From assembly GCF_013350005.1 (NCBI RefSeq), contig NZ_JABVWW010000010.1, forward strand, positions 1 to 64,000: a stretch of DNA of 64,000 nucleotides, written 5' to 3'. The notes below the pieces were generated by a model. That model was not told the DNA's origin. It saw only the letters and a list, made by a program, of their open reading frames with translations, and did not search any database. The position numbers and the translations under genes were made by a program. This DNA is from Methylocystis silviterrae (GTDB taxonomy: Bacteria > Pseudomonadota > Alphaproteobacteria > Rhizobiales > Beijerinckiaceae). Positions 14,105 through 26,581 of this stretch are shown here, piece after piece; position 1 is the first letter of the stretch; the number at the start of each line of letters is the position of its first letter.

Positions 14105-15112
14105 TTATCGGGCGGCGCCCCAGCCGAAGTCCTTGTCTAGAAGAGCGTAGAGTTCTTCATTGTAGGGCCGGAAAAACTCGGCCAAATTCGCCCGAATGCC
14201 GTCGTCAAGCTTTCCGGGCGGACCCGGATTTTGCTCCTCGATGACGAGCGGCTCGACTTTGGGAAGACCAAGAAACGCGTAAATGTCCTTCGCGGTCGAT
14301 CGCGGATCTCGAAAAAATTCCGCCGCATCGACGATCAAGACGCGGTCTCTGCCGAATTTCTCGAACAGCAGGCGCAGAAAGGGCGCGTAGATGCTGTGGC
14401 GCAGATAGCCGGCGCGCGCGCCGGAAAATGCGTGCGGCTCCATGCCGCCGCCCCGTATCGTCGCCATTTCGGCCTCGATCAATGTTCGGAAATCCGGAAA
14501 GCCCTTCCAGTGCGGGTCCTGCATCTTGCGGCTGAAACGCTTCTGATCCCATCGCCAGTGCGAAAAGGTGCGCTCCACCGGATCACGCAGAACGCAGATG
14601 ATGCGCATGTCTGGAAACATCGACTGGGCCACAAAAATCCAGAGGGGATTGGGCATGACCGGCGTGCAGTAGCCGGTGATCGCGCCGCCGTTTCGCCGTT
14701 CCGCCGCCCTTTGCGCCGCGAGCGTCGGAAAATGCGCCATGAGTTCGCGCATCGTGTCCGTGAAGGAGATTTCCTTCGACAGCGGCAGCACGACGTGCGG
14801 ATGCTGGAAAATATAGGAGGAGAGAAAAGACGTGCCGGAGCGCACCGCGCCGATCGATGCGAATGACGGCGCCATGCGTTGGCTGGAGCCGAGGGTCCGC
14901 GCCCACACCCGCCATTTTGGCGGGTTGAAAAAGTAATAGGAGCGGAATTGACGCTTCGCCCGAAGGGGCAGGGCTTCCAAAATCCCGCTGGCGCGCGATA
15001 GCCGGTTGAAGTCCTGGTAGGGGGTCTGGATCGTTTCCAGTCGTTTCGGATCAACCGCGAGAATCGGCTCCGGCTGGGAGGGCGCGTGGAGTTCCGGCGA
15101 AAGGATGGACAT
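14105..15112 (-). CDS. mbnS: methanobactin sulfotransferase
   Basis: A 335-residue PAPS-dependent sulfotransferase. The 5'-phosphosulfate loop reads GAVRSGTSFLSSY near residue 88 and the 3'-phosphate motif is ICVLRDPVERTFSHW near residue 170. It is the last gene of the A-B-C-M-F-S order, in which MbnS sulfates a threonine of the Methylocystis methanobactin core; two threonines are available in MbnA here. It starts after AGGAG, 54 bases past the end of mbnF. The function follows from the operon and the family; generic membership alone would not give the substrate. Confidence 0.85.
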   Translation of the reverse strand: MSILSPELHAPSQPEPILAVDPKRLETIQTPYQDFNRLSRASGILEALPLRAKRQFRSYYFFNPPKWRVWARTLGSSQRMAPSFASIGAVRSGTSFLSSYIFQHPHVVLPLSKEISFTDTMRELMAHFPTLAAQRAAERRNGGAITGYCTPVMPNPLWIFVAQSMFPDMRIICVLRDPVERTFSHWRWDQKRFSRKMQDPHWKGFPDFRTLIEAEMATIRGGGMEPHAFSGARAGYLRHSIYAPFLRLLFEKFGRDRVLIVDAAEFFRDPRSTAKDIYAFLGLPKVEPLVIEEQNPGPPGKLDDGIRANLAEFFRPYNEELYALLDKDFGWGAAR

Positions 15113-15166: not shown

Positions 15167-16813
15167 CTAGGTTGCGTCGACGAGCGTAGCCTTGAGACTG
15201 CCGCTGGATTGGCGCGTATCGAAACCGCGCACGCGCGCAAAACTCGCATCGAGCGTCGCGAGAGCGTCGGGGCTTCGGCCTCGCGAACGCCAGCAGATGA
15301 ATCCGTCTGGCCGCACGAGTAGCGCGCCTTCAGGCGAAACGCCGAGACGCGGCAGAAACAGCCCTTCGGGATCGTCGACGTCGAAGCCGAGGCGGCAGAC
15401 GCCAAGCGGCGCGCCTGAACGAAGGCCGACACGTTCCGCCGCCTCGATCCAGTCGCCGCCGTCCGGACCGGCGAAGAGCATGAAACCGCGTCCAATCAGA
15501 TCATGAGAGGAGATCGTCTCCTCGCCGCGCCGCAGCCAGACATGCGCGAGGCGCGTTCCCGGCGCGCCGCTCGGGTGAAGAGGGTCTTCGACCGCTGCGC
15601 CGTCGTCGATTTCGTCGGCGATGATCGCGTTGGAGCGATACCGATAGCCGATCGCGGTTTCGCCAAGGCCGTATTCGTCTTCCCGAATGCGCAGTTCCTG
15701 ACGATCGGGCAGGAGACGCTCAACGTAATTGGCGAAGGCTCTTGCGATCGCGATTTGCGCCACGGGCTTGCGCTCAATCTGATAGGTATCGAGCAGCGTG
15801 GGAGCGGCATGGCCCTTCACGACAAGCGCCAGCTTCCAAGCTAGGTCCGCGGCGTCCTGGATCGCGGTTTGTCCCCCCAAGCCGCCGACCGGCGGCACGA
15901 TATGCGCGGCGTCGCCGGCAAGAAACACCCGGCCAAAGGACATGCGATCGGCAAGAAGAGCGGCCATCCGCCAAGGACGAACGTCGAGAATCTTGACCGC
16001 GAGATCAGGGACGCCAAGAGATTGTCGAACCAGTTCTCGGCATCGTTCTTCGTCGAAATCGGATGCCTGATCGCGGGAGGAATCATATTCTATGTTGATC
16101 TGGCCGCGATTGGGCTCGTCGCAAGTGACGAAGGCGCCGCTGAACGCCTTGTTGCGAAAATAATAGAGAGCAAACCCGTCTCTCCGCAGGATTGCGCCGA
16201 GATCGGCCTCGAACAGCACCGACATCGCATCCGCGATCACTCCCGGGCCTTCCATCTTCACGGCGCCGGCGTCACGGATCGTTCCGCCGGCGCCGTCGGC
16301 GGCGATCATATAGTCGGCGAGAACGGTGGTTTCTCGTCCCGACGCCTCGTCGCGCAAAATCGCTTCAACGCCGTCCTCTCCTTGGGAGAAGCGCGCCAGC
16401 GCCGTCGAAAATCTGACGTCGGCGCCGTTCTCGCGGGCGAAGCGCAGCAGCACGGGCTCGACCCGGTCCTGGCCCGCGGTGCATATCTTGCTCGGCGACA
16501 CGCGAGTCGCATCGAGCGACATCTTGGTCACCAGCGTCTCAATCGCCGGACCCGTAACGGTCTCCGCAATGATCACCGTTGTATCGTTTGCGCCGGTGCG
16601 GCTTGCTGCGAACAGCGCATCCTCCAGGCCATCGACGACGCGCAGAACCTCCATGCTGCGCCGATTCAGCCCATGCGCTTTCGGCAGCCCCGACGTTGAC
16701 GCGCGTCGCTCCACGAGGATGCAAGGAACGCCGCGCCAGGCGAGGAGCGTCGCCGCGGACAGACCGGCATAGCCTGCGCCGACAATGAGAACAGGGACTC
16801 GTTCCATGCTCAT
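15167..16813 (-). CDS. mbnF: FAD-dependent monooxygenase of methanobactin tailoring
   Basis: A 548-residue PHBH/UbiH-type flavin monooxygenase. The N-terminal dinucleotide motif is VLIVGAGYAGLSAATLL, and the FAD ribityl motif is VFLAGDAAHIVPPVGGLGG near residue 285. A C-terminal thioredoxin-like extension (about 400-548) is typical of aromatic-ring hydroxylases. In Methylocystis-type operons MbnF is thought to convert an N-terminal oxazolone to the pyrazinedione-type ring. Its ATG overlaps the mbnM stop by four bases, indicating coupled translation. Confidence 0.88.
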   Translation of the reverse strand: MSMERVPVLIVGAGYAGLSAATLLAWRGVPCILVERRASTSGLPKAHGLNRRSMEVLRVVDGLEDALFAASRTGANDTTVIIAETVTGPAIETLVTKMSLDATRVSPSKICTAGQDRVEPVLLRFARENGADVRFSTALARFSQGEDGVEAILRDEASGRETTVLADYMIAADGAGGTIRDAGAVKMEGPGVIADAMSVLFEADLGAILRRDGFALYYFRNKAFSGAFVTCDEPNRGQINIEYDSSRDQASDFDEERCRELVRQSLGVPDLAVKILDVRPWRMAALLADRMSFGRVFLAGDAAHIVPPVGGLGGQTAIQDAADLAWKLALVVKGHAAPTLLDTYQIERKPVAQIAIARAFANYVERLLPDRQELRIREDEYGLGETAIGYRYRSNAIIADEIDDGAAVEDPLHPSGAPGTRLAHVWLRRGEETISSHDLIGRGFMLFAGPDGGDWIEAAERVGLRSGAPLGVCRLGFDVDDPEGLFLPRLGVSPEGALLVRPDGFICWRSRGRSPDALATLDASFARVRGFDTRQSSGSLKATLVDAT

Positions 16814-18111
16814 TGGACACGTCCTTTCAAGCGCAACGGGACGCCAGCCGGCTCCTCGGGCGCGGATCGAAGGTTAAGCCAGATCAAGAAAACGGCGAGG
16901 GCTTCAGGCCAGATCAGAGATTGATAGGCGATCTCCGGACGGTTCACGGCGAGTCCAAATAGAATGAACAGCGGCGCGATGAACCATTGCGCAAGCACAT
17001 CGACAGAGGTCAGTTCTGCGAATGAGCTCTGCGCGAGCGTCAGTCCTCGGACGATACTGCCGACGAAACGGATTGGCAGGGAGAGCGCCAAGCAGGCGAC
17101 GAATACGGACCACCAGGCTCCATGTTGGCGGTAAAGGGTCGCGCCGATCCAATCGCGCCCGAACAGCAGTATGACTGCGGCGGCCAGTGTGATTGGCGCG
17201 CCGAGCCGCACGACTGGCGCGAGCGCCGGCGTCCAGTCGCCGTGAGCTTTCGCCGGAAGGCGGATGGCGAGAAAGCGCGTCAGCGTAATCAGCGGACCAA
17301 GTACGAACAGCATGAAAGTTTGGGCGGCGGCAAATGAGTCGAGACGCTGGCCGTTGGCGCCGTTCTGCCAGGGGAGCGAAAAGAGGGCCAGCGTGAAGAG
17401 CATCGCCGCCCGCGGGGAGAGCACGCGCAACGCTTCCCAAAACGTTCCGCTTAGAAAAGAGCGGACGAACGCGATTTCCGGGACGCGTATTCTGCGCGCG
17501 CCATGCGCTTCCAGCCGACTCCACAGCCAAAGCGAAGCGATGGCCGAAACGATGCAGCTCGCGAGAAAACATCCCGCGAAACCAAAGCCGAGGGCCTGCA
17601 TGAAAAGGACGTTGGCCCCGGCTTTCACGGGAATTTCCGCGAGTTTCCATGTGAGCGCCGAGCCGCCGCGTCCGAGGGCGTGCAACAAGAATCCTTGCGT
17701 ATTCGAAAGAACGCGAAAAGGCGTGCCGGCAACGAGCCAAACGATAGGGGCGCCGATATAGGGAGCGGCCGCGGCGTCCCCCATCAGGGCGTCAAGAAAG
17801 ATCGGATAGGCGAAGAAGCCGAAAATCGCCGTCGCGACGCCCAGCGCGAGGGAGAGCGCGCAAGCCTTTTCGATTGCCTCGGCGGTCTCGCCATTCTTTT
17901 GCGCGTGGCCGAGCGCAATCGCCGCGACGGCGGCGCAAGCGATGGTGACCGCGACATCGAGCAGCGTGATGCGCATCAGAATCGCATAAGCTCCCGACGC
18001 GCGGCCGCCCAGTCTCGCGACCATGGCGAGATCGATTTGCATAATGAAGGCGGCCACGGAAGTGCTGGCGAACAGGAACCAGTATCCGCGCCACAACGGC
18101 GCGCTTGTCAT
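16810..18111 (-). CDS. mbnM: MATE-family methanobactin exporter
   Basis: A polytopic membrane protein of about 433 residues with about 12 hydrophobic helices and MATE-like organisation (for example AYAILMRITLLDVAVTI and later LGAPITLAAAVILLFGRDWI). It is placed between mbnC and mbnF and assigned as the efflux carrier that secretes apo-methanobactin. The ATG at 18111 overlaps the mbnC stop as ATGA and is preferred; an in-frame ATG at 18129 would add six residues. Confidence 0.88.
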   Translation of the reverse strand: MTSAPLWRGYWFLFASTSVAAFIMQIDLAMVARLGGRASGAYAILMRITLLDVAVTIACAAVAAIALGHAQKNGETAEAIEKACALSLALGVATAIFGFFAYPIFLDALMGDAAAAPYIGAPIVWLVAGTPFRVLSNTQGFLLHALGRGGSALTWKLAEIPVKAGANVLFMQALGFGFAGCFLASCIVSAIASLWLWSRLEAHGARRIRVPEIAFVRSFLSGTFWEALRVLSPRAAMLFTLALFSLPWQNGANGQRLDSFAAAQTFMLFVLGPLITLTRFLAIRLPAKAHGDWTPALAPVVRLGAPITLAAAVILLFGRDWIGATLYRQHGAWWSVFVACLALSLPIRFVGSIVRGLTLAQSSFAELTSVDVLAQWFIAPLFILFGLAVNRPEIAYQSLIWPEALAVFLIWLNLRSAPEEPAGVPLRLKGRVQ

Positions 18112-18689
18112 CGCGCCAAGCTCTGCCACCCCGGAAATAGGTCAAGTTCGAAGGACTGCAGCGTAAAGTAGCCAAAAATATCCGGAGGCGCCGGCAGCGG
18201 CTCTTCGGGTTCGATAAGTTCGATCTCGCGCCCCAAACGAACGCTGCGGCATTTCCAGCCGATGACAAGATTCGTCGTGTCTGCGCATCCGATGACGATT
18301 CCGCAATCTCTGCCGCGATCGAGGATAGCCCAACGCGCGGCCGACGCCGCCATGACCGACCGCAGATATTTGTCGTCGGCGAGCAACCGCTCCTTGAACG
18401 GCGATTGGCGCAGCCAAGCGTAGACCCACAGATAATAGGACCAGTCAAAGGCGAGCTTCTTCTCTCCAGCCCAGGCCATGAAGGGCCGGAAGATCGACAT
18501 CCCGTCGAGACCGGAAAGCTCCAACAATTCTGGGCAGATGTCGAAGAGCGTGTGCCAATACATGCGCAGGCTCACGTCGATCCGCACGAAGGCCTTCTGG
18601 TCCGTAGGATATTTTGCGTTCAGTTCCGGCGACATCAGCGCCGGGTAGAGATCGCGATCAGTCCGACTAGGCAGAGAGAGCAAGATCAT
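18108..18689 (-). CDS. mbnC: MbnC, partner of the methanobactin-modifying enzyme
   Basis: A 193-residue protein whose only clear relatives are MbnC proteins. Together with MbnB it forms the iron-dependent complex that converts Cys residues of MbnA to oxazolone and thioamide. The mid-region has SLRMYWHTLFDICPELLEL. The gene overlaps the end of mbnB by 23 bases and is followed by mbnM through an ATGA overlap, so B-C-M are translationally coupled. Identification rests on position and on recalled family similarity; there is no standard enzyme motif. Confidence 0.9.
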   Translation of the reverse strand: MILLSLPSRTDRDLYPALMSPELNAKYPTDQKAFVRIDVSLRMYWHTLFDICPELLELSGLDGMSIFRPFMAWAGEKKLAFDWSYYLWVYAWLRQSPFKERLLADDKYLRSVMAASAARWAILDRGRDCGIVIGCADTTNLVIGWKCRSVRLGREIELIEPEEPLPAPPDIFGYFTLQSFELDLFPGWQSLAR

Positions 18690-19494
18690 GACGCCTTTCT
18701 TCCGGTTGGCCGAACAGCTCTCGCAACAACTTCAGATCGGCGACGATATCGTCAAATTCGATCCGGTCGTCGCGCTCATAGGTCATTGTTGCGCCGGGCT
18801 TGTCGAAGACCGATCGGAAATCTCTCAGGAAGGCGAGCGTGTCGGGCGCCAGAGCCTCTGCGTGAGTGTCCAGCGAGATGAAAGGCTCGACCAGGGAATG
18901 CCTGTAGCCCGCGACATGGAAATGCCGGGCCTCGGCAATGACGTTACGCCAGGCTTCGAACGGCGTCCCGCAATTGCGATGGGCGCAAACGGCGTTGGAT
19001 GCGTCGAACAGCACGCCGGCGCCGGTTTCTTTCATCAGGCGCTCGAAGAAGGCGGGCGCCTCTCTCCCCCCGTCCATGATGGAGGGATAATTTTCAAAAT
19101 GGATGCGTTGTCCGACGATTTCCTGCCAGGCGAGGACCCTGTCGCGGACGGATTCATATTCGGTGGAATAGTCGATTTCACCCAAGTGAAAAAAAGCGCG
19201 CCCTTCATGAGTGAAGCGCAGAATGTGGTCGGAGACGTACATCGGATTCAGCACATCGATGTAGTCTCGAAGCCGCGCCGCAAAATCGACCAGCGTCGGC
19301 CGATCGGCTTCTAGAAACTTTGAATACATTATATGCAAGCCGATCGGACAATCGAACGCCTTGGACAGTTCCTCCGGATCGACGCAGAAAAAATTGTCGA
19401 TCAGAAATTCGCAGTAGTCGATATGCCGTTCCGCGAGCAGCCTCTGAACCATGTCATAGGTGTCGCCGAGCGTGAAATTGAAGCCAAGCCGCAT
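18667..19494 (-). CDS. mbnB: MbnB, DUF692-type iron oxygenase of methanobactin synthesis
   Basis: A 275-residue DUF692/TIM-barrel protein (MbnB/TglH group). Metal-ligand candidates occur in the expected places: His54 in IGLHIMYS, His90 in VSDHILRF, Glu134 in HFENYPS and Asp164/Asn167 in LFDASNAV, with more His/Asp further on. In the MbnBC complex it oxidises MbnA cysteines to oxazolone plus thioamide using O2. The ATG has a GAGG site. It is separated from mbnA by 78 bases holding a strong hairpin, which should make mbnA mRNA more abundant than mbnB mRNA. Confidence 0.95.
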   Translation of the reverse strand: MRLGFNFTLGDTYDMVQRLLAERHIDYCEFLIDNFFCVDPEELSKAFDCPIGLHIMYSKFLEADRPTLVDFAARLRDYIDVLNPMYVSDHILRFTHEGRAFFHLGEIDYSTEYESVRDRVLAWQEIVGQRIHFENYPSIMDGGREAPAFFERLMKETGAGVLFDASNAVCAHRNCGTPFEAWRNVIAEARHFHVAGYRHSLVEPFISLDTHAEALAPDTLAFLRDFRSVFDKPGATMTYERDDRIEFDDIVADLKLLRELFGQPEERRHDLALSA

Positions 19495-19572: not shown

Positions 19573-19665
19573 TTAGCCGTTCGTGGCGGCGCAGGTCGAA
19601 GCGCACATGGCGCCGGCGCGGCCGATAACATTGAGCGTAATGCGCTTGGCGATACGGATGGTCAT
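19573..19665 (-). CDS. mbnA: methanobactin precursor peptide MbnA
   Basis: A 30-codon gene. The leader contains the hallmark V-I-G-R-A-x-A before the core, and shares M-T-x-x-I-A and the L-x-V-I-G-R-A pattern with the Methylosinus trichosporium OB3b MbnA. The predicted core is MCASTCAATNG, with two cysteines for ring/thioamide formation and two threonines, one of which may be sulfated by MbnS. Methylocystis cores such as that of strain SB2 are recalled as RCASTCAATNG, so this one differs by Met for Arg at core position 1. A strong ribosome site (GGGGAGG) lies 5 bases before the ATG. The frame is also open upstream into the sigma-factor gene. Confidence 0.95.
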   Translation of the reverse strand: MTIRIAKRITLNVIGRAGAMCASTCAATNG

Positions 19666-20436
19666 AGGGGCCTCCCCTTTCGAGTTCGTCTGGAACGTCC
19701 AGACGGGCTCCGCAGAACGCGGGACCCGAATGGTATGACGAGCGAGGCCGCAAAAATCGGACAGCATGCGACGAGATTTTTTTCGAGCCGAGGGGATTGT
19801 TATTTCCGTCGCATCCCGGGCGACGGACGGCGCGTCCGATGGCGCTGCCAAAAACTCGCGCGGCGAATCCGCCGCCTCGAGAGGCGGCGCGCCCACGGGG
19901 TCGCTCGGCCGCGGAATATCGAAGGCGCGATCGAAATGCTCGAGCGCCCGACCCAGGCTGCGATTGACCGTCCTCAAGGAAACGCCGAGTTCCTGCGCGA
20001 TCTCCGAATGGCTGAAACCTAGAATCCGGCTCATCAGGAATATCTGACGACAACATCGCGGCAGCCGCGCCAGGGCCGCTTGAACATCCCGCGCCAGGCC
20101 GAATGCGTCGAGGGCCGACGTGATTTGCGTGTCTCGAGCGGGCGACTGGAACCATGCGCCGTCTTCGGCAAGCGCTCGAGCGTGCGTTCTTTGCCTTCGA
20201 AGATTGTCGATCGCGAGCGTGCACGTCATCTTCGACACATAGCCGCGCGCATTCGAAATCAGTTCGCCACGGTCGCTTTCCAGCATTTTGAGATAGGCTT
20301 CCTGGACCAGGTCTTCGGCGTCTCCCGAGCCGATCACGCGGCGCGCCCGCGTTATCAGATCGCGATGATGGCTTCTAAACAGTCGGTCGATCGTCTCATG
20401 GGACTTCTGCATCAGCGCCTCCCCGCTTGTCTCCAA
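19573..20436 (-). CDS. ECF sigma factor (MbnI-like) whose frame continues through mbnA
   Basis: Residues 1-172 form a complete ECF sigma factor. Region 2 contains HHRDLITRARRVIG and AEDLVQEAYLKML. Region 4 contains LPRCCRQIFLMSRILGFSHS and the helix-turn-helix EIAQELGVSLRTVNRSLG. Such proteins usually end shortly after this point. Here no stop follows: about 85 low-complexity residues lead in frame into the MbnA sequence (residues 258-287), ending at the mbnA stop. In other mbn operons a FecI-like sigma factor (MbnI) with an anti-sigma MbnR controls transcription; no MbnR is seen here. The start may be 20436 or the ATG at 20412. Whether the fusion is made is unknown, because mbnA also has its own ribosome site. 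Confidence 0.8.
   Translation of the reverse strand: METSGEALMQKSHETIDRLFRSHHRDLITRARRVIGSGDAEDLVQEAYLKMLESDRGELISNARGYVSKMTCTLAIDNLRRQRTHARALAEDGAWFQSPARDTQITSALDAFGLARDVQAALARLPRCCRQIFLMSRILGFSHSEIAQELGVSLRTVNRSLGRALEHFDRAFDIPRPSDPVGAPPLEAADSPREFLAAPSDAPSVARDATEITIPSARKKSRRMLSDFCGLARHTIRVPRSAEPVWTFQTNSKGEAPMTIRIAKRITLNVIGRAGAMCASTCAATNG
19687..19705. promoter_or_regulatory. perfect inverted repeat upstream of mbnA
   Basis: CGTCTGGA (19687-19694) and TCCAGACG (19698-19705) are exact 8-bp arms with a 3-bp centre, 22-40 bases before the mbnA ATG. It could be an operator or an mRNA hairpin close to the mbnA ribosome site. It lies in the linker-coding part of the sigma-factor frame. Confidence 0.5.
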
Positions 20437-20550: not shown

Positions 20551-20886
20551 TTAGACGGGGGAGGCGCGCGCCGGCGGCGTTGCCGACAGCGTTCGGGAAA
20601 CGGGAAGGATCGGAAGCGCGAGAACGCTGATTCGCGCCGTTGGAAAGGACAGGCGCGCAACCTGGTCATAGACGCAGAAGATCTGCGGCTGAGCGTCGCA
20701 GCACGCGATACAGTCCGAGCAAGAGCCGTCGTGTTCGCCCGGCGCGTGAGGCGTCGCGGGAATCACATCGCTTTTGCAGACTACGGCCCGGAACGACAAA
20801 GAATGAGATTGAGCGCGCGCGGCGACAGTCGAAACGCCAGCGACTTGCAGCAATATCGCAACGAAAAGAATGAGCCGAACGAGCAT
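20551..20886 (-). CDS. small exported Cys-rich protein (DUF2946-like)
   Basis: A 111-residue protein. A signal-peptide-like start (MLVRLILFVAILLQVAGVST, then ARA) is followed by a short mature chain with a His/Asp/Cys cluster GEHDGSCSDCIACCDAQ and a hydrophobic C-terminal segment. This resembles small DUF2946-type proteins often found beside copper genes, but the match is recalled and not certain. It is upstream of, and on the same strand as, the sigma-factor gene. Its cysteine cluster suggests periplasmic metal binding or sensing. Confidence 0.5.
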   Translation of the reverse strand: MLVRLILFVAILLQVAGVSTVAARAQSHSLSFRAVVCKSDVIPATPHAPGEHDGSCSDCIACCDAQPQIFCVYDQVARLSFPTARISVLALPILPVSRTLSATPPARASPV

Positions 20887-21317
20887 GGATTGCCGCCAAC
20901 CATTGCCTACGGTGCGCGGATCATAGGCGCGAAGCAATCGGGCGGCAATACGAAAACTTCCTATACGACGCGCGCATGGCGGAACGATAGGGGTCCGATA
21001 AGGCGGAGACGCTGTGACAAATGGCAACGGTCGGCGGCCCTGCTGCGCTGTCTCCAGCCGCCACAAAATCTTTCGTACGGACAAAAGACTCTGTGCGAGA
21101 GACTCTGCAGACTCTGTGCGAGAGACTCTGCGCCGGCGGTCGCGCCGCCATTTGGAGTGATGTCGGAATGCACGGCGTTCTTCGCCGCCGGCCAAATTGA
21201 AAGACAAAGCGAAATTGCAAAGACCAAGTGTGGCTGCAGCGCAACAGTTCAAAATATTGCAAAAGTTAGGCGCTAACCGTCGTTGACAAGTTAATCCTCG
21301 TGCACTCAGAATTCCTT
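20887..21317. other. divergent control region between the mbn and mbnPH sides
   Basis: About 430 bp between two divergent small-protein genes. I see no gene with convincing composition. It holds a 23-bp tandem repeat at 21086-21131. A TTGACA at 21283-21288 could be a -35 element for the rightward genes, but no good -10 follows at the right distance. The promoters of both divergent transcription units should be here. Confidence 0.5.
21086..21131 (+). repeat. 23-bp tandem direct repeat, two copies
   Basis: The unit AGACTCTGTGCGAGAGACTC, followed by TGC, occurs at 21086-21108 and again at 21109-21131, directly adjoining. Each unit itself contains AGACTCTG twice, so the octamer appears four times in about 46 bp. 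Its place in a divergent promoter region suggests protein-binding sites, though simple slippage duplication is possible. Confidence 0.8.
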
Positions 21318-21731
21318 ATGCGGCCAGACAAGAAACAAATGCGGCGATTCATGCGTCCGATTGTGGCGGCCGCCGTCGCTTGTCTGCTGTTTCAGCAAGC
21401 TTTGGGTCTTATTTTTTCTCACGGCCGCTACGGCGGCGATTTCGGCGCGTTCCTAAGCTCTCCCGTAGCGATGGCGAACGAGCTTTGCGCCGACCAAGCC
21501 AATGGCGACGGCAAGGCCCCGCATGTTCAGCACATGCACTGCATGGCTTGCTTTCTAAGCGACCGAAACGACGACCTCGGAGCAAAGGTTCTCCTGTCCG
21601 CCGTCGTTCTCGTGCTGGCGCCCTTGTCTGAAACTCCTCCTCTGTGGCCGGAAGAGCGCGATATCGCGCCGCCGACCACCCAGTGGCCTAGAAACAGGCT
21701 TTCTCGCGCACCCCCGTCGCTTCTCTCCTAA
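21318..21731 (+). CDS. small membrane/exported protein with HxHCxxC motif (DUF2946-like)
   Basis: A protein of about 137 residues. It has a positively charged start, then a hydrophobic helix (VAAAVACLLFQQALGLIF), a mid segment HVQHMHCMACFLSDRN that carries His, Met and Cys suited to copper, and a second hydrophobic segment (VLLSAVVLVLAPL). The plan matches the leftward small gene at 20.6-20.9 kb, so the two may be diverged paralogues. A GTG at 21300 and an ATG at 21339 are alternative starts. It precedes mbnP by about 160 bp on the same strand. Confidence 0.5.
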   Translation: MRPDKKQMRRFMRPIVAAAVACLLFQQALGLIFSHGRYGGDFGAFLSSPVAMANELCADQANGDGKAPHVQHMHCMACFLSDRNDDLGAKVLLSAVVLVLAPLSETPPLWPEERDIAPPTTQWPRNRLSRAPPSLLS

Positions 21732-22969: not shown

Positions 22970-24144
22970 AGCGCGAAACTCTCGTCCTCCTCTTCGTCGC
23001 AACTCTGATCGCGGGCGGCGCGCAAGGCGACACAATCCCGAGCGCGGAATCGTGGCGCTGGACCTTGCCCGAGTTCATGCCGCCGCCACGGGTTCCAGCT
23101 GACAATGGAATGTCGGAGGCGCGTTTTCAGCTCGGACGCAAGCTCTTCTACGACCCGCGTCTGTCGGGAAACGGCAAGGAGAGTTGCGCCTCCTGCCATG
23201 AGCAGCGCCTGGCGTTCACCGATGGTCGCCCGGTCGCCGTCGGAGCCACGGGCCAGCATACGCCGCGCAATTCGCCCAGCATCGCCAACGCCGCCTGGCG
23301 CGCCACGCTCACCTGGGCGAATCCGGCGATGGTGACCCTGGAAAGGCAGATGGAAGGCCCGCTGTTTGGCGAAGAGCCGATCGAGATGGGCGTCAATGAC
23401 AAGAACCGCAAAGAGATCCTCGCGCGCTTTGCGGGCGACGCGGATTATCGTCGCGACTTCGCGGCGGCGTTTCCCGGCGAGGCGGATCCAATCAGCTTCG
23501 GCAACGTCATCAAGGCGATCTCCGCCTTTGAGCGCGGCGTCGTCTCGGCGTCCTCGAAATATGATCTCTATCTTGAAGGCAAAGCGACGCTCTCTCCTGA
23601 AGAGACGCGCGGCAAGGATCTCTTCTTCGGCGAGAAGGCGGAATGCCATCACTGCCATGGCAGCGTGAATTTCGACGATCAGTTCTATCACGCCAAAACG
23701 CGCGAGATCGAGACGCCGTTTCACAACACCGGCCTCTATGATCTCGACGGAAAGGGCGCCTATCCGGAGCCCAATCGCGGCGTTTTCGAGAACACGCATA
23801 ATCCCGCCGAGATGGGGGCGTTTCGCGCTCCCAGCCTGCGCAATATCGCTGTCACCGCGCCTTATATGCACGACGGCAGCGTCGCGACGCTCGAGGACGT
23901 GATCGATATTTACGCGTCTGGCGGCCGCAATGTCACGAGCGGTCCATTCAAGGGCGACGGCCGGTACAATCCGAACAAAAGCGCGCTGATCGTGCCCATC
24001 GATCTGTCGGCTCAGGAAAAGAGCGATCTGATCGCCTTTCTGAAAACGCTGACCGACGACTCCCTGCTGACATCTCCCCGCTTCGCCGACCCGTGGAAAC
24101 CGGCGTCGACGGCAAGCGGATCCACGCGTGCGCCTGCCCAATGA
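22966..24144 (+). CDS. mbnH: MbnH, MauG-like diheme cytochrome c peroxidase
   Basis: A 392-residue periplasmic diheme protein with a signal peptide (to about residue 21). The two haem-binding motifs are CASCH (74-78) and CHHCH (227-231), the bacterial cytochrome c peroxidase/MauG arrangement. MbnH activates MbnP by oxidising a tryptophan to kynurenine through a high-valent iron state. The gene overlaps mbnP by four bases. A C-terminal segment MHDGSVATLEDVIDIYASGG is family-typical. Confidence 0.9.
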   Translation: MKRETLVLLFVATLIAGGAQGDTIPSAESWRWTLPEFMPPPRVPADNGMSEARFQLGRKLFYDPRLSGNGKESCASCHEQRLAFTDGRPVAVGATGQHTPRNSPSIANAAWRATLTWANPAMVTLERQMEGPLFGEEPIEMGVNDKNRKEILARFAGDADYRRDFAAAFPGEADPISFGNVIKAISAFERGVVSASSKYDLYLEGKATLSPEETRGKDLFFGEKAECHHCHGSVNFDDQFYHAKTREIETPFHNTGLYDLDGKGAYPEPNRGVFENTHNPAEMGAFRAPSLRNIAVTAPYMHDGSVATLEDVIDIYASGGRNVTSGPFKGDGRYNPNKSALIVPIDLSAQEKSDLIAFLKTLTDDSLLTSPRFADPWKPASTASGSTRAPAQ

Positions 24145-24175
24145 GTTTCAACCCCGAATTAGGAAAGAAAAGAAG

Positions 24176-26581
24176 ATGACGTCCCGGTCGAAATTGATGC
24201 ATGGCGCAGCGCTCGGCGCTCTCGCCGTCTTGTCCGCCGCCTCCGTCGCGCACGCGCAGCAGGCGCTTCCGCAGATCACGATCGGCGCCGCGCCGGTCAG
24301 GCCTCCCGCCGTCCGGGAATCGACGGCGGGCGAGGAAGGAATCGCGCCGGGCTTTAGCGCCGCCCGCGCGAAACTGCCGATCTATCGGGACCCGCCGGGG
24401 CAGACGGTGACGATCGTCAACACCAAGTTCCTCAAGCCGACGCCTCTAGCGGATGTCCGGAGGGTGTTGGAATACAGCCCCGGCGTCTCCATACAGCAAG
24501 GCAATAATGCGCGCGATCTGTTTATTTCGATTCGCGGCTCGGGCAATCGGGCTGGTGTCGGGTTTCCAACTGGCATCCGCAACATCATGCTGTACGAAGA
24601 CGGGTTCCCGATCACGACGGCCGACGGCAATAGCCGCACCGACCTGCTTGATCCGCATTCCTTTGCCGCCGTCGACGTCTATCGCGGACCTTCGTCGGCG
24701 CTCTTCGGCAATTACGCCTATGCGGGCGCGATCAATTTCCGCAGCTTTTCCGGGGCCGAAATCGACGGCGTCCACACCGGTTCGGAATTTGGCAGCTTCG
24801 GCTATGTCAACAATTATGTCCGTGTCGGCAAGGCGGTGAAGGACAGCACGCTCGGCGCCTTCGATCTGTCGTTTTTCGCCTCCGACGCTAACAGCACCGG
24901 CTATACCCGCAACTCTTTCTCAGGCAAACAAGCCAAGCTTCTCGGCAGATGGGACGTGACCCCTACCGATCGTGTCATCGTGAAATATATCGCCAACAAC
25001 TTGAGATCGGAGTTCATCAACCGAGAAAATCTCAATGTGTTCTACCTCAATCCATTTCAACAAAATTATGGCTGCTCCATCGCCGTCCCCCTGAACCTCA
25101 ACTTATGCAACAATCTGAATGTGCCGAAGAATGGCATATCGGGCGCGACCACTCGCCAAAGCGTCTGGCAGCTTGGCACTCATCAACACTCTCTCAGACA
25201 GATCGCCGGCGTTCAGTTCGAGCATGACTTCAACAACGCCACCACCTGGCGATCGCAATTTACTTATGATTATCTCGATAACATCAGTGGAGCTTGGCCG
25301 CCGCCGATATTTGGCCCCACCGGCCAGGGCGGCCCGGTCGCCTTAAGGGGTCCAACGGTGGGCATCACCGCGCAGACCGACATTACCAGTCACATTCCGA
25401 TCTTTGGATTTCCGGCGACACATTTTCTCCAGTTCTTCTATAACAACGCCAAAACCACCAATCCGCTCTTTAATCAGATCGCGAATACGTGGTACAGCGG
25501 CGCAATCGGCGCGCAGGTCGGCAAGTTCGACTACTATACTTCAAACATTGGTCTGCGCGCGCGTGAAGAGATTGCGCTCGCTCCGGGCCTGACTGGCGTC
25601 GTGGGGTTCAGCGCCAACTGGAATCGCGTCTGGGGCGTCAATACCGCCTATAACTACCCGGCCAATCTGGCGCCCAGATTTCCTACTCAAGTCGCCGTCG
25701 ACAATGATTATTGGAACACGGCGCCGGAAGCGTCGCTCACTTATCGCTATAGCCCCGAGTGGCAAGTGCGGGCGCGCTATGCGGCGGGCTACAGCACGCC
25801 GACATTCGTGTTTCTCACCACTACCCGAAACGGAGTCGGACAAAATCCCCTAAAGGCCCAGACCAACATGGGCGTCGATCTCGGGATCGACTGGACGCCG
25901 CGCCCCGATCTCACCGTCAGCGTAACCGGCTTCAACGAATGGCATCGCAACGAGATTCTGACGTTGAGCAATGGGCTCGTCAGCTATTCGCAAAATATTC
26001 CCTCCAGTCTCCACCGCGGCGTCGAACTCAACGCCGATTGGCGGCCCTTCGACGGATGGCGGCTGATCGCGGCCTATACGTTCAACGATCAGTTCTTCAC
26101 CAATTACTGGGACGATCTCGGTTCGGTCGCGGGGCGAGCCGTCTTATATAATCGCTCCGGCAACAGGATTCCCAACGTGCCGCCGCATACTGTGACGATG
26201 CGCGTCGGATACGACCAGCCATACGGCGACCTTTCGGGTCTCGGCGCTTACGCCGAATATGTTTTCAAGAGCAATTATACGATCGACAACGCGAATTTCA
26301 CCACTCTGCCGAGCTACAGCCTGTTCAATCTTAACGCGCACTATAATCACGACTTAGACAACTTCTATGTCAAAAATATCGAGCTCTTTTTCGAGGTCTC
26401 GAATATTTTCAATCGGACCTACGTCGGTGGCGCATTCGTTGTCGCCAACTCGCTCCTCCCGGGCACCGCGACACAAACGCCGCTGGTCTGGCCGACAGGC
26501 GGCCTGGTGACGGCGCAAGGCGCCGGCATCATCGCCGGCCAGCCGCGCGCTTTCACGGGAGGCGTCAAACTCAAGTTCTGA
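24176..26581 (+). CDS. TonB-dependent outer-membrane receptor
   Basis: An 801-residue outer-membrane receptor. The signal peptide ends at about AHA (residue 24). The plug domain begins near VTIVNTKFLKPTPLADVRRV and contains the DLFISIRGSGNR motif. A 22-strand barrel ends in the C-terminal KLKF. There is no N-terminal signalling (STN) domain, unlike the sigma-linked MbnT of Methylosinus. It directly follows mbnH (31 bases), so it probably imports a copper chelate, possibly copper-methanobactin, or another metal complex. ATG 24176 is chosen because it leads straight into a signal peptide. Confidence 0.85.
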   Translation: MTSRSKLMHGAALGALAVLSAASVAHAQQALPQITIGAAPVRPPAVRESTAGEEGIAPGFSAARAKLPIYRDPPGQTVTIVNTKFLKPTPLADVRRVLEYSPGVSIQQGNNARDLFISIRGSGNRAGVGFPTGIRNIMLYEDGFPITTADGNSRTDLLDPHSFAAVDVYRGPSSALFGNYAYAGAINFRSFSGAEIDGVHTGSEFGSFGYVNNYVRVGKAVKDSTLGAFDLSFFASDANSTGYTRNSFSGKQAKLLGRWDVTPTDRVIVKYIANNLRSEFINRENLNVFYLNPFQQNYGCSIAVPLNLNLCNNLNVPKNGISGATTRQSVWQLGTHQHSLRQIAGVQFEHDFNNATTWRSQFTYDYLDNISGAWPPPIFGPTGQGGPVALRGPTVGITAQTDITSHIPIFGFPATHFLQFFYNNAKTTNPLFNQIANTWYSGAIGAQVGKFDYYTSNIGLRAREEIALAPGLTGVVGFSANWNRVWGVNTAYNYPANLAPRFPTQVAVDNDYWNTAPEASLTYRYSPEWQVRARYAAGYSTPTFVFLTTTRNGVGQNPLKAQTNMGVDLGIDWTPRPDLTVSVTGFNEWHRNEILTLSNGLVSYSQNIPSSLHRGVELNADWRPFDGWRLIAAYTFNDQFFTNYWDDLGSVAGRAVLYNRSGNRIPNVPPHTVTMRVGYDQPYGDLSGLGAYAEYVFKSNYTIDNANFTTLPSYSLFNLNAHYNHDLDNFYVKNIELFFEVSNIFNRTYVGGAFVVANSLLPGTATQTPLVWPTGGLVTAQGAGIIAGQPRAFTGGVKLKF

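Follow-up and report, generated by a model that had tools for sequence, protein, structure and literature searches.

The fused frame and the methanobactin operon

The window, a stretch of 64,000 nucleotides from Methylocystis silviterrae (assembly GCF_013350005.1, contig NZ_JABVWW010000010.1, positions 1 to 64,000), carries on its minus strand an operon for methanobactin, the copper-acquiring peptide of methane-oxidising bacteria. As the initial annotation had pointed out, minus-strand 19573-20436 forms one continuous frame: the ORF listing gives a single open reading frame with a TTG start, 287 codons (287 aa) long, with a complete MbnA at its 3' end. The sigma factor gene has no stop codon of its own, and its primary product is therefore always sigma-linker-MbnA. 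The fused frame comprises the following features.

19573-20436, minus strand: whole open frame sigma-linker-MbnA, 287 codons from the TTG, stop included (ORF listing, Pfam, NCBIfam)
20418-20424, minus strand: sigma ribosome site GGGGAGG, 5 nt upstream of the ATG (sequence)
20410-20412, minus strand: ATG, sigma start of choice (codon 9; 279 aa), kept in 16/16 aligned frames (sequence)
19915-20412, minus strand: ECF sigma domain, residues 9-174 of 287 (Pfam; dN/dS)
19786-19914, minus strand: proximal linker, variable in sequence and length, frame open (codon alignment, simulation)
19666-19785, minus strand: distal linker, conserved as DNA, with promoter-like element, leader and mbnA ribosome site inside (synonymous divergence, dN/dS, alignments)
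19671-19677, minus strand: mbnA ribosome site GGGGAGG (sequence)
19573-19665, minus strand: mbnA, methanobactin precursor, 30 aa plus stop, beginning at 19665 (PF25751, TIGR04071)

The ATG at codon 9 is a likelier sigma start than the TTG, because the GGGGAGG motif lies 5 nt upstream of it. Within the 287-aa frame, sigma region 2 comprises residues 19-83 (PF04542) and region 4 residues 116-167 (PF08281); with both regions present and a TIGR02937 match of 77.2 bits (cut-off 42.9), the protein belongs to the ECF sigma factors. The MbnA part was recognised by the Pfam family Methanobactin (PF25751, residues 258-284, 49 bits, cut-off 27) and by TIGR04071 (51.5 bits, cut-off 24), and no other Pfam family was found in the tail at E 0.001. 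AlphaFold2 gave no confident structure for residues 166-279 of the 279-aa form. This would fit a tether, but the model was used solely for tail disorder and, with an alignment of 18 rows and a mean pLDDT of 54.7, says little. The strong ribosome site of mbnA noticed by the initial annotation was found at 19671-19677, and the suggestion of two possible products, free MbnA and the fusion, agrees with this separate site and the continuous frame.

The genes mbnB and mbnC directly follow mbnA and both score above their cut-offs, which identifies a methanobactin operon. The neighbouring genes are:

18667-19494, minus strand: mbnB (TIGR04159, 450.2 bits, cut-off 325)
18108-18689, minus strand: mbnC (TIGR04160, 291.6 bits, cut-off 185)
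16810-18129, minus strand: mbnM, exporter (NF045578)
15167-16813, minus strand: mbnF, monooxygenase (NF045577)
14105-15112, minus strand: sulfotransferase, mbnS by position (PF13469, PF00685)
24128-26581, plus strand: TonB-dependent receptor (Pfam: Plug and barrel only)

Two small secreted-looking Cys/His proteins are encoded between the sigma gene and mbnP (20551-20886, minus strand, and 21300-21731, plus strand). The latter matches DUF2946 at 26.2 bits, the former is similar to it by eye alone. Upstream of the DUF2946 gene, at about 21090-21135, two copies of the direct repeat gactctgtgcgagagactctgc were seen by eye.

The initial annotation knew of no described case of such a fusion in mbn operons. 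This does not hold, since Kenney and Rosenzweig noted fusions in Methylocystis SC2 and M. rosea already in 2013, leaving their cleavage as a question (PMC3621798), and NCBIfam contains the model NF040705, "methanobactin precursor domain-containing sigma factor". The window protein matches this model over its full length (1-272 of 272; 538.3 bits, cut-off 350) and has the same architecture and protein plan as the fusions of SC2 and M. rosea. The fusion is thus not new. New is the anatomy of the linker, a probable promoter and leader at DNA level, which the initial annotation had missed; relative to NF040705 and the accessible text of PMC3621798, the probable nested promoter, the leader and the analysis of the frame are additions of the present work.

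Occurrence of the fusion

MbnA was present in 22 of the 39 Methylocystis genomes and the intact fused frame in 16. In two genomes (G151 and G177) a more distant sigma factor is fused to MbnA as well; their frames measure 316 and 314 codons from stop to stop, and the fusions show 43-44% identity overall to the window protein. A genome (G215) with the same signature as locus L013 of strain H62 exhibits a frameshift in sigma region 4. In the census, 19 genomes contained such a sigma gene in front of mbnA. The frame was open in 18 of them; the single break lay in sigma region 4 and none in the linker. A scan of the named genomes yielded 14 loci, i.e. 12 intact frames, the frameshift in L013 and one locus (L015) at a contig end. 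The fusion is therefore genuine and conserved across a large part of the genus Methylocystis, and it already has a name.

The stop codon after region 4, which the initial annotation had looked to in related genomes as evidence against the fusion, is absent from all 16 aligned frames as well as from both divergent fusions. A sequencing or assembly error that removed a stop codon was considered as a trivial explanation and rejected: nothing was found in its favour and it is contradicted by 15 further distinct open frames, including two with 95% identity (G190, G201), so that its probability is negligible.

In L013 (4001-4546; signature shared by G215 and L058/L060) the sigma gene is shifted in region 4, and the linker, the promoter-like element and mbnA are open. 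Since mbnB, mbnC, mbnM and mbnF of this locus stay open despite the frameshift, the sigma factor may be dispensable.

Three Methylocystis genomes (G199, G202, G213) carry MbnA in short frames, and a search with the fused protein found nothing in them at E 1e-20. Unfused MbnA genes of other types were seen at L083 (G213) and at L064 and L086, both in G202. Near the MbnA gene of G213, an ORF on the minus strand resembles FecR on inspection by eye.

Among 397 genomes sampled from the family, 30 showed an MbnA match, 22 of them Methylocystis. The MbnA frames of the other eight are at most 172 aa long (172 aa in G078), and among the frames listed from this sample no fusion was found outside Methylocystis. 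In a sample of 397 genomes of the order, which is thin, MbnA was found only in the genome under study; the equally thin sample of 398 genomes of the phylum gave one further match, below the cut-off and in a 61-aa frame, and no fusion. Plasmid records yielded 1501 matches, mostly to the sigma part. Two M. iwaonis plasmids carry the fusion, annotated under the NF040705 name, and a third long plasmid match is a sigma gene together with a FecR gene. Six phage records showed partial sigma matches, none of them with 80% coverage. The gene after mbnP is annotated as MbnM in the M. iwaonis plasmid NZ_AP027143.1 (L111, 10046-11230) and as MbnH at the same place in NZ_CP143315.1, a disagreement which is probably a naming slip.

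The linker: nested promoter-like element, probable leader and open frame

The evolution of the linker was followed in a codon alignment of 16 distinct nucleotide frames, each joining the sigma start to the MbnA pattern without a stop. For dN/dS and for the simulation, L013 (frameshift), L015 (24 residues, contig end), the divergent pair G151/G177 and identical copies were set aside; L013 and the divergent pair were joined in for the leader and cysteine counts.

In the sigma part, dN/dS is 0.11 for region 2 and 0.16 for region 4, with 85/62/256 changes at the three codon positions, indicating that it evolves as a protein; the corresponding changes in mbnA are 14/9/42. In the proximal linker, dN/dS is 0.69 at a synonymous divergence of 0.43, and the changes (98/80/108) have no codon periodicity, which argues that no particular peptide is selected. 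The distal linker (28/32/48) has the same dN/dS of 0.69 and a synonymous divergence of 0.152, with 0.088 in its core, compared to 0.31-0.36 in the sigma parts. These low values together with the dN/dS indicate that it is conserved mainly as DNA. The peptide LSDFCGLARHTIRVPRSAEPVW was considered as a conserved linker peptide and rejected in favour of conserved DNA, as conservation extends to its synonymous sites and the element takes another phase in G151/G177. The distal linker contains:

19732-19762, minus strand: promoter-like element GTCCGA-N16-CGTC-N-TACC (TGTCCGA with one more upstream base), with putative -35 and -10 roles by comparison with the ECF41 motif
19705-19727, minus strand: predicted leader hairpin 1 (folding)
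19688-19704, minus strand: predicted leader hairpin 2, alternatively a DNA palindrome (folding)
19750-19752, minus strand: codon of the sole linker Cys, residue 229 (Cys count)

The ECF41 promoter is TGTCACA-n16-CGTC, and CGTC is typical of many ECF promoters (PMC3426412). The element has the same letters at its putative -10 motif and the same spacing, and its putative -35 motif TGTCCGA agrees in 5/7 letters. Its distance to the ATG of mbnA is constant in 17/17 main-clade sequences. In G151 and G177 the spacing within the element is kept, it lies 98 instead of 97 nt before the ATG, and it stands in another frame phase; the element thus appears to be kept as DNA. GTCCGA-N16-CGTC-N-TACC in its exact form was counted once per genome in all 19 genomes that have such a sigma gene before mbnA (one of these frameshifted) and in none of the 20 other Methylocystis genomes, including three with MbnA but no such frame. 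The reversed pattern, used as control, is present in 1/39 genomes. This co-occurrence of element and sigma factor is partly trivial, because the element sits within the locus. If the sigma factor reads the element, the lack of a second copy leaves it a single target. One copy per genome also rules out an exact element ahead of the sigma gene itself. A wider regulon was looked for and rejected: besides the exact site, two sites of the own genome differ from the element at 2 positions and 12 at 3 positions, compared to 19 for the reversed control, and a looser search of the window gave 73 matches, fewer than the shuffles (mean 94.4).

Both hairpins are part of the minimum-energy fold in 13 of the 16 leaders; hairpin 2 is lost in L007 and L009, and hairpin 1 is changed in L010. 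The leader of G151 folds into two hairpins, too, with different stem letters. Compared to shuffles, three of the four leaders tested (out of 19) had z scores of about -2.2 and the fourth, L011, -1.2. In the main clade, 0/15 pairs were changed on both sides, so that one-sided changes make up the support for the hairpins, and the shuffle control was uninformative. As a known RNA family, only RT-15 appeared in the leader; it was rejected at 21.6 bits against a gathering score of 82. With the element, two predicted hairpins at fixed spacing and the mbnA ribosome site, the distal linker is probably a nested mbnA promoter and leader, and free MbnA is probably made from its own promoter inside the sigma frame.

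The linker contains one cysteine in 19/19 sequences, at position -29 (16 sequences) or -30 (3 sequences) from MbnA. L010 has lost this Cys codon, and Cys stands at the adjacent residue instead. As a control, a frame-1 cysteine at -33 is kept in 17/17 main-clade sequences and absent from both divergent ones. The constancy of the linker cysteine is suggestive but a post hoc observation.

The aligned linkers are 62, 73, 78, 79, 81, 82 or 83 codons long, all in frame. Frame 0 is open in 16/16, the other two forward frames in 9/16 each (stop in 7/16); an open linker this long would be nothing unusual in one GC-rich genome taken alone. The neutral evolution of the proximal linker was simulated in 5000 runs, in which changes of the inferred number and kind were put randomly along the tree. 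None of the 16 frames was broken in 1.9% of the runs on the sigma tree and in 4.0% on the linker tree, the mean number of broken tips being 5.6 and 5.0, respectively; the 16 input frames had been preselected as intact. For the same reason, the census with 18 of 19 frames open is the unbiased count. The linkers of G151 and G177 differ by 3 synonymous and 5 non-synonymous codons, too few to judge. Altogether, these results moderately support selection that keeps the linker open. Openness as such does not show a task for the tail, since unbroken translation into mbnA would suffice equally.

The simplest alternative is that the stop codon was lost once without any use, the tail being tolerated, the frame open by chance and the distal linker kept only as promoter and leader of mbnA. 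A proximal linker without codon periodicity and with a dN/dS of 0.69, constraint at DNA level in the distal part, other linker frames that are often open (9/16 each), a tail without predicted structure and a strain that keeps the operon with a broken sigma factor are all consistent with it. It is weakened, however, by the chance of 0.019-0.040 for all frames to be open, by length changes that are all in frame, by a divergent pair that stays open with its promoter element in another phase and by the absence of any break within the linker in 19 genomes. We regard this explanation as possible but rather doubtful. Alternatively, ribosomes running from sigma into mbnA might spare the long message early termination, with the tail as a by-product. 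This would fit openness that is selected without selection on the sequence, and mbnB, mbnC, mbnM and mbnF do lie downstream on the same strand. However, such coverage would matter only for a read-through message, because mbnA apparently has a promoter and a ribosome site to itself, and we consider it unlikely.

The fusion might also be a pro-protein that is cut into sigma factor and MbnA, the latter contributing to methanobactin. MbnA has to be cut from its leader anyway, and cleavage was raised as a question by Kenney and Rosenzweig (PMC3621798). The ribosome site and promoter-like element belonging to mbnA itself speak against this, as does the drifting proximal linker, in which no conserved cleavage motif is evident. 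Such a role is very improbable.

Missing partners and a possible feedback loop

In Methylosinus, an ECF sigma factor at the mbn locus is part of the FecIRA-type system MbnI/MbnR/MbnT (PMC9601215, PMC3621798). The locus studied here shares the ECF sigma factor, but differs in that there is no adjacent FecR-type partner, the receptor has no reported signalling domain and MbnA is fused to the sigma factor. FecI models reach about 55 bits, far below their cut-off, so that kinship to FecI is weak, and other ECF models score higher. No FecR-type anti-sigma factor was found beside the fused sigma gene, nor did Pfam report an N-terminal signalling domain in the receptor at 24128-26581; two features of FecIRA-type signalling are thus absent here. 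One FecR-domain protein, with a signal-peptide-like start, is encoded in the genome on another contig (C6), and no sigma ORF was recognised beside it in its 3.3-kb stretch.

ECF factors without an anti-sigma factor may have a regulatory tail, which is predicted for at least 26 groups (PMC8999054). This applies e.g. for CorE, which senses copper through its tail (PMC8999054) and would be a precedent for the suggestion of the initial annotation that the sigma factor might sense its own product or copper by way of a modified tail. With CorE/CorE2 of Myxococcus xanthus (former ECF44; PMC8999054) our protein shares a Cys in a C-terminal extension and the copper setting, whereas a RiPP precursor forms its tail, which has a single Cys in the linker and two in MbnA. 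Neither of the CorE hallmarks, a CXC between regions 2 and 4 and a Cys-rich C-terminal domain, is present in the translation. ECF41 (PMC3426412) likewise has a C-terminal extension, one neighbouring target and a promoter that agrees in part with the element found here; its extension is unrelated, however, and the putative target of our protein is situated within the frame of the sigma factor itself. Pfam found no C-terminal domain of the ECF41 type, which places the protein outside that group. IutY of Pseudomonas putida (PMC8999054) is also an ECF sigma factor of metal starvation with a C-terminal fusion partner, but a membrane anti-sigma factor there and a soluble peptide precursor here.

Based on the sequence comparisons, we propose a nested locus with two products. 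The sigma factor is always made as sigma-linker-MbnA, and the nested ECF-type promoter, two-hairpin leader and ribosome site would give rise to an mbnA-B-C-M-F-S message and free MbnA. The orphan fused sigma factor would read this nested promoter, of which the genome contains no second exact copy. Taken together, a two-product locus with the sigma factor driving the nested mbnA promoter seems to us rather more credible than doubtful.

A regulatory role of the tail is a more tentative proposal. The flexible tail ending in MbnA might replace the missing FecR-type anti-sigma factor. The MbnA leader attaches to MbnC as a beta strand (PMC8888699), and accumulated MbnBC could therefore dock on the tail and hold or modify the sigma factor, resulting in a feedback loop. 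The supply of copper or iron might be felt via the state of the tail. This MbnBC feedback is suggested by the examples of CorE and of IutY, which is fused to its anti-sigma factor, together with the binding of the MbnA leader by MbnC. On its own, the coupling of the sigma factor to MbnBC by the MbnA tail is conceivable but in our estimate rather improbable. The same holds for the wider idea, which we put forward as speculative, that a RiPP precursor acts as the sensor part of the sigma factor controlling it, either with MbnBC as anti-sigma factor or with copper bound by the modified tail and the linker Cys, and that this sigma factor makes the free precursor by activating a promoter within its own gene. 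In a search of the methanobactin literature, covering few subscription journals, we found no paper testing regulation of the sigma factor by the MbnA tail and no expression data for the fusion.

The anatomy of the fusion suggests a self-contained control loop at a Methylocystis locus from which parts of the Methylosinus FecIRA scheme are absent. Even if the tail has no function, the nested promoter matters for the construction of mutants. Deletion of the sigma gene would also remove the probable mbnA promoter, and clean tests therefore need a stop or point change ahead of this promoter. If the tail does regulate the sigma factor, the precursor of a natural product would be the sensor of its own gene cluster.
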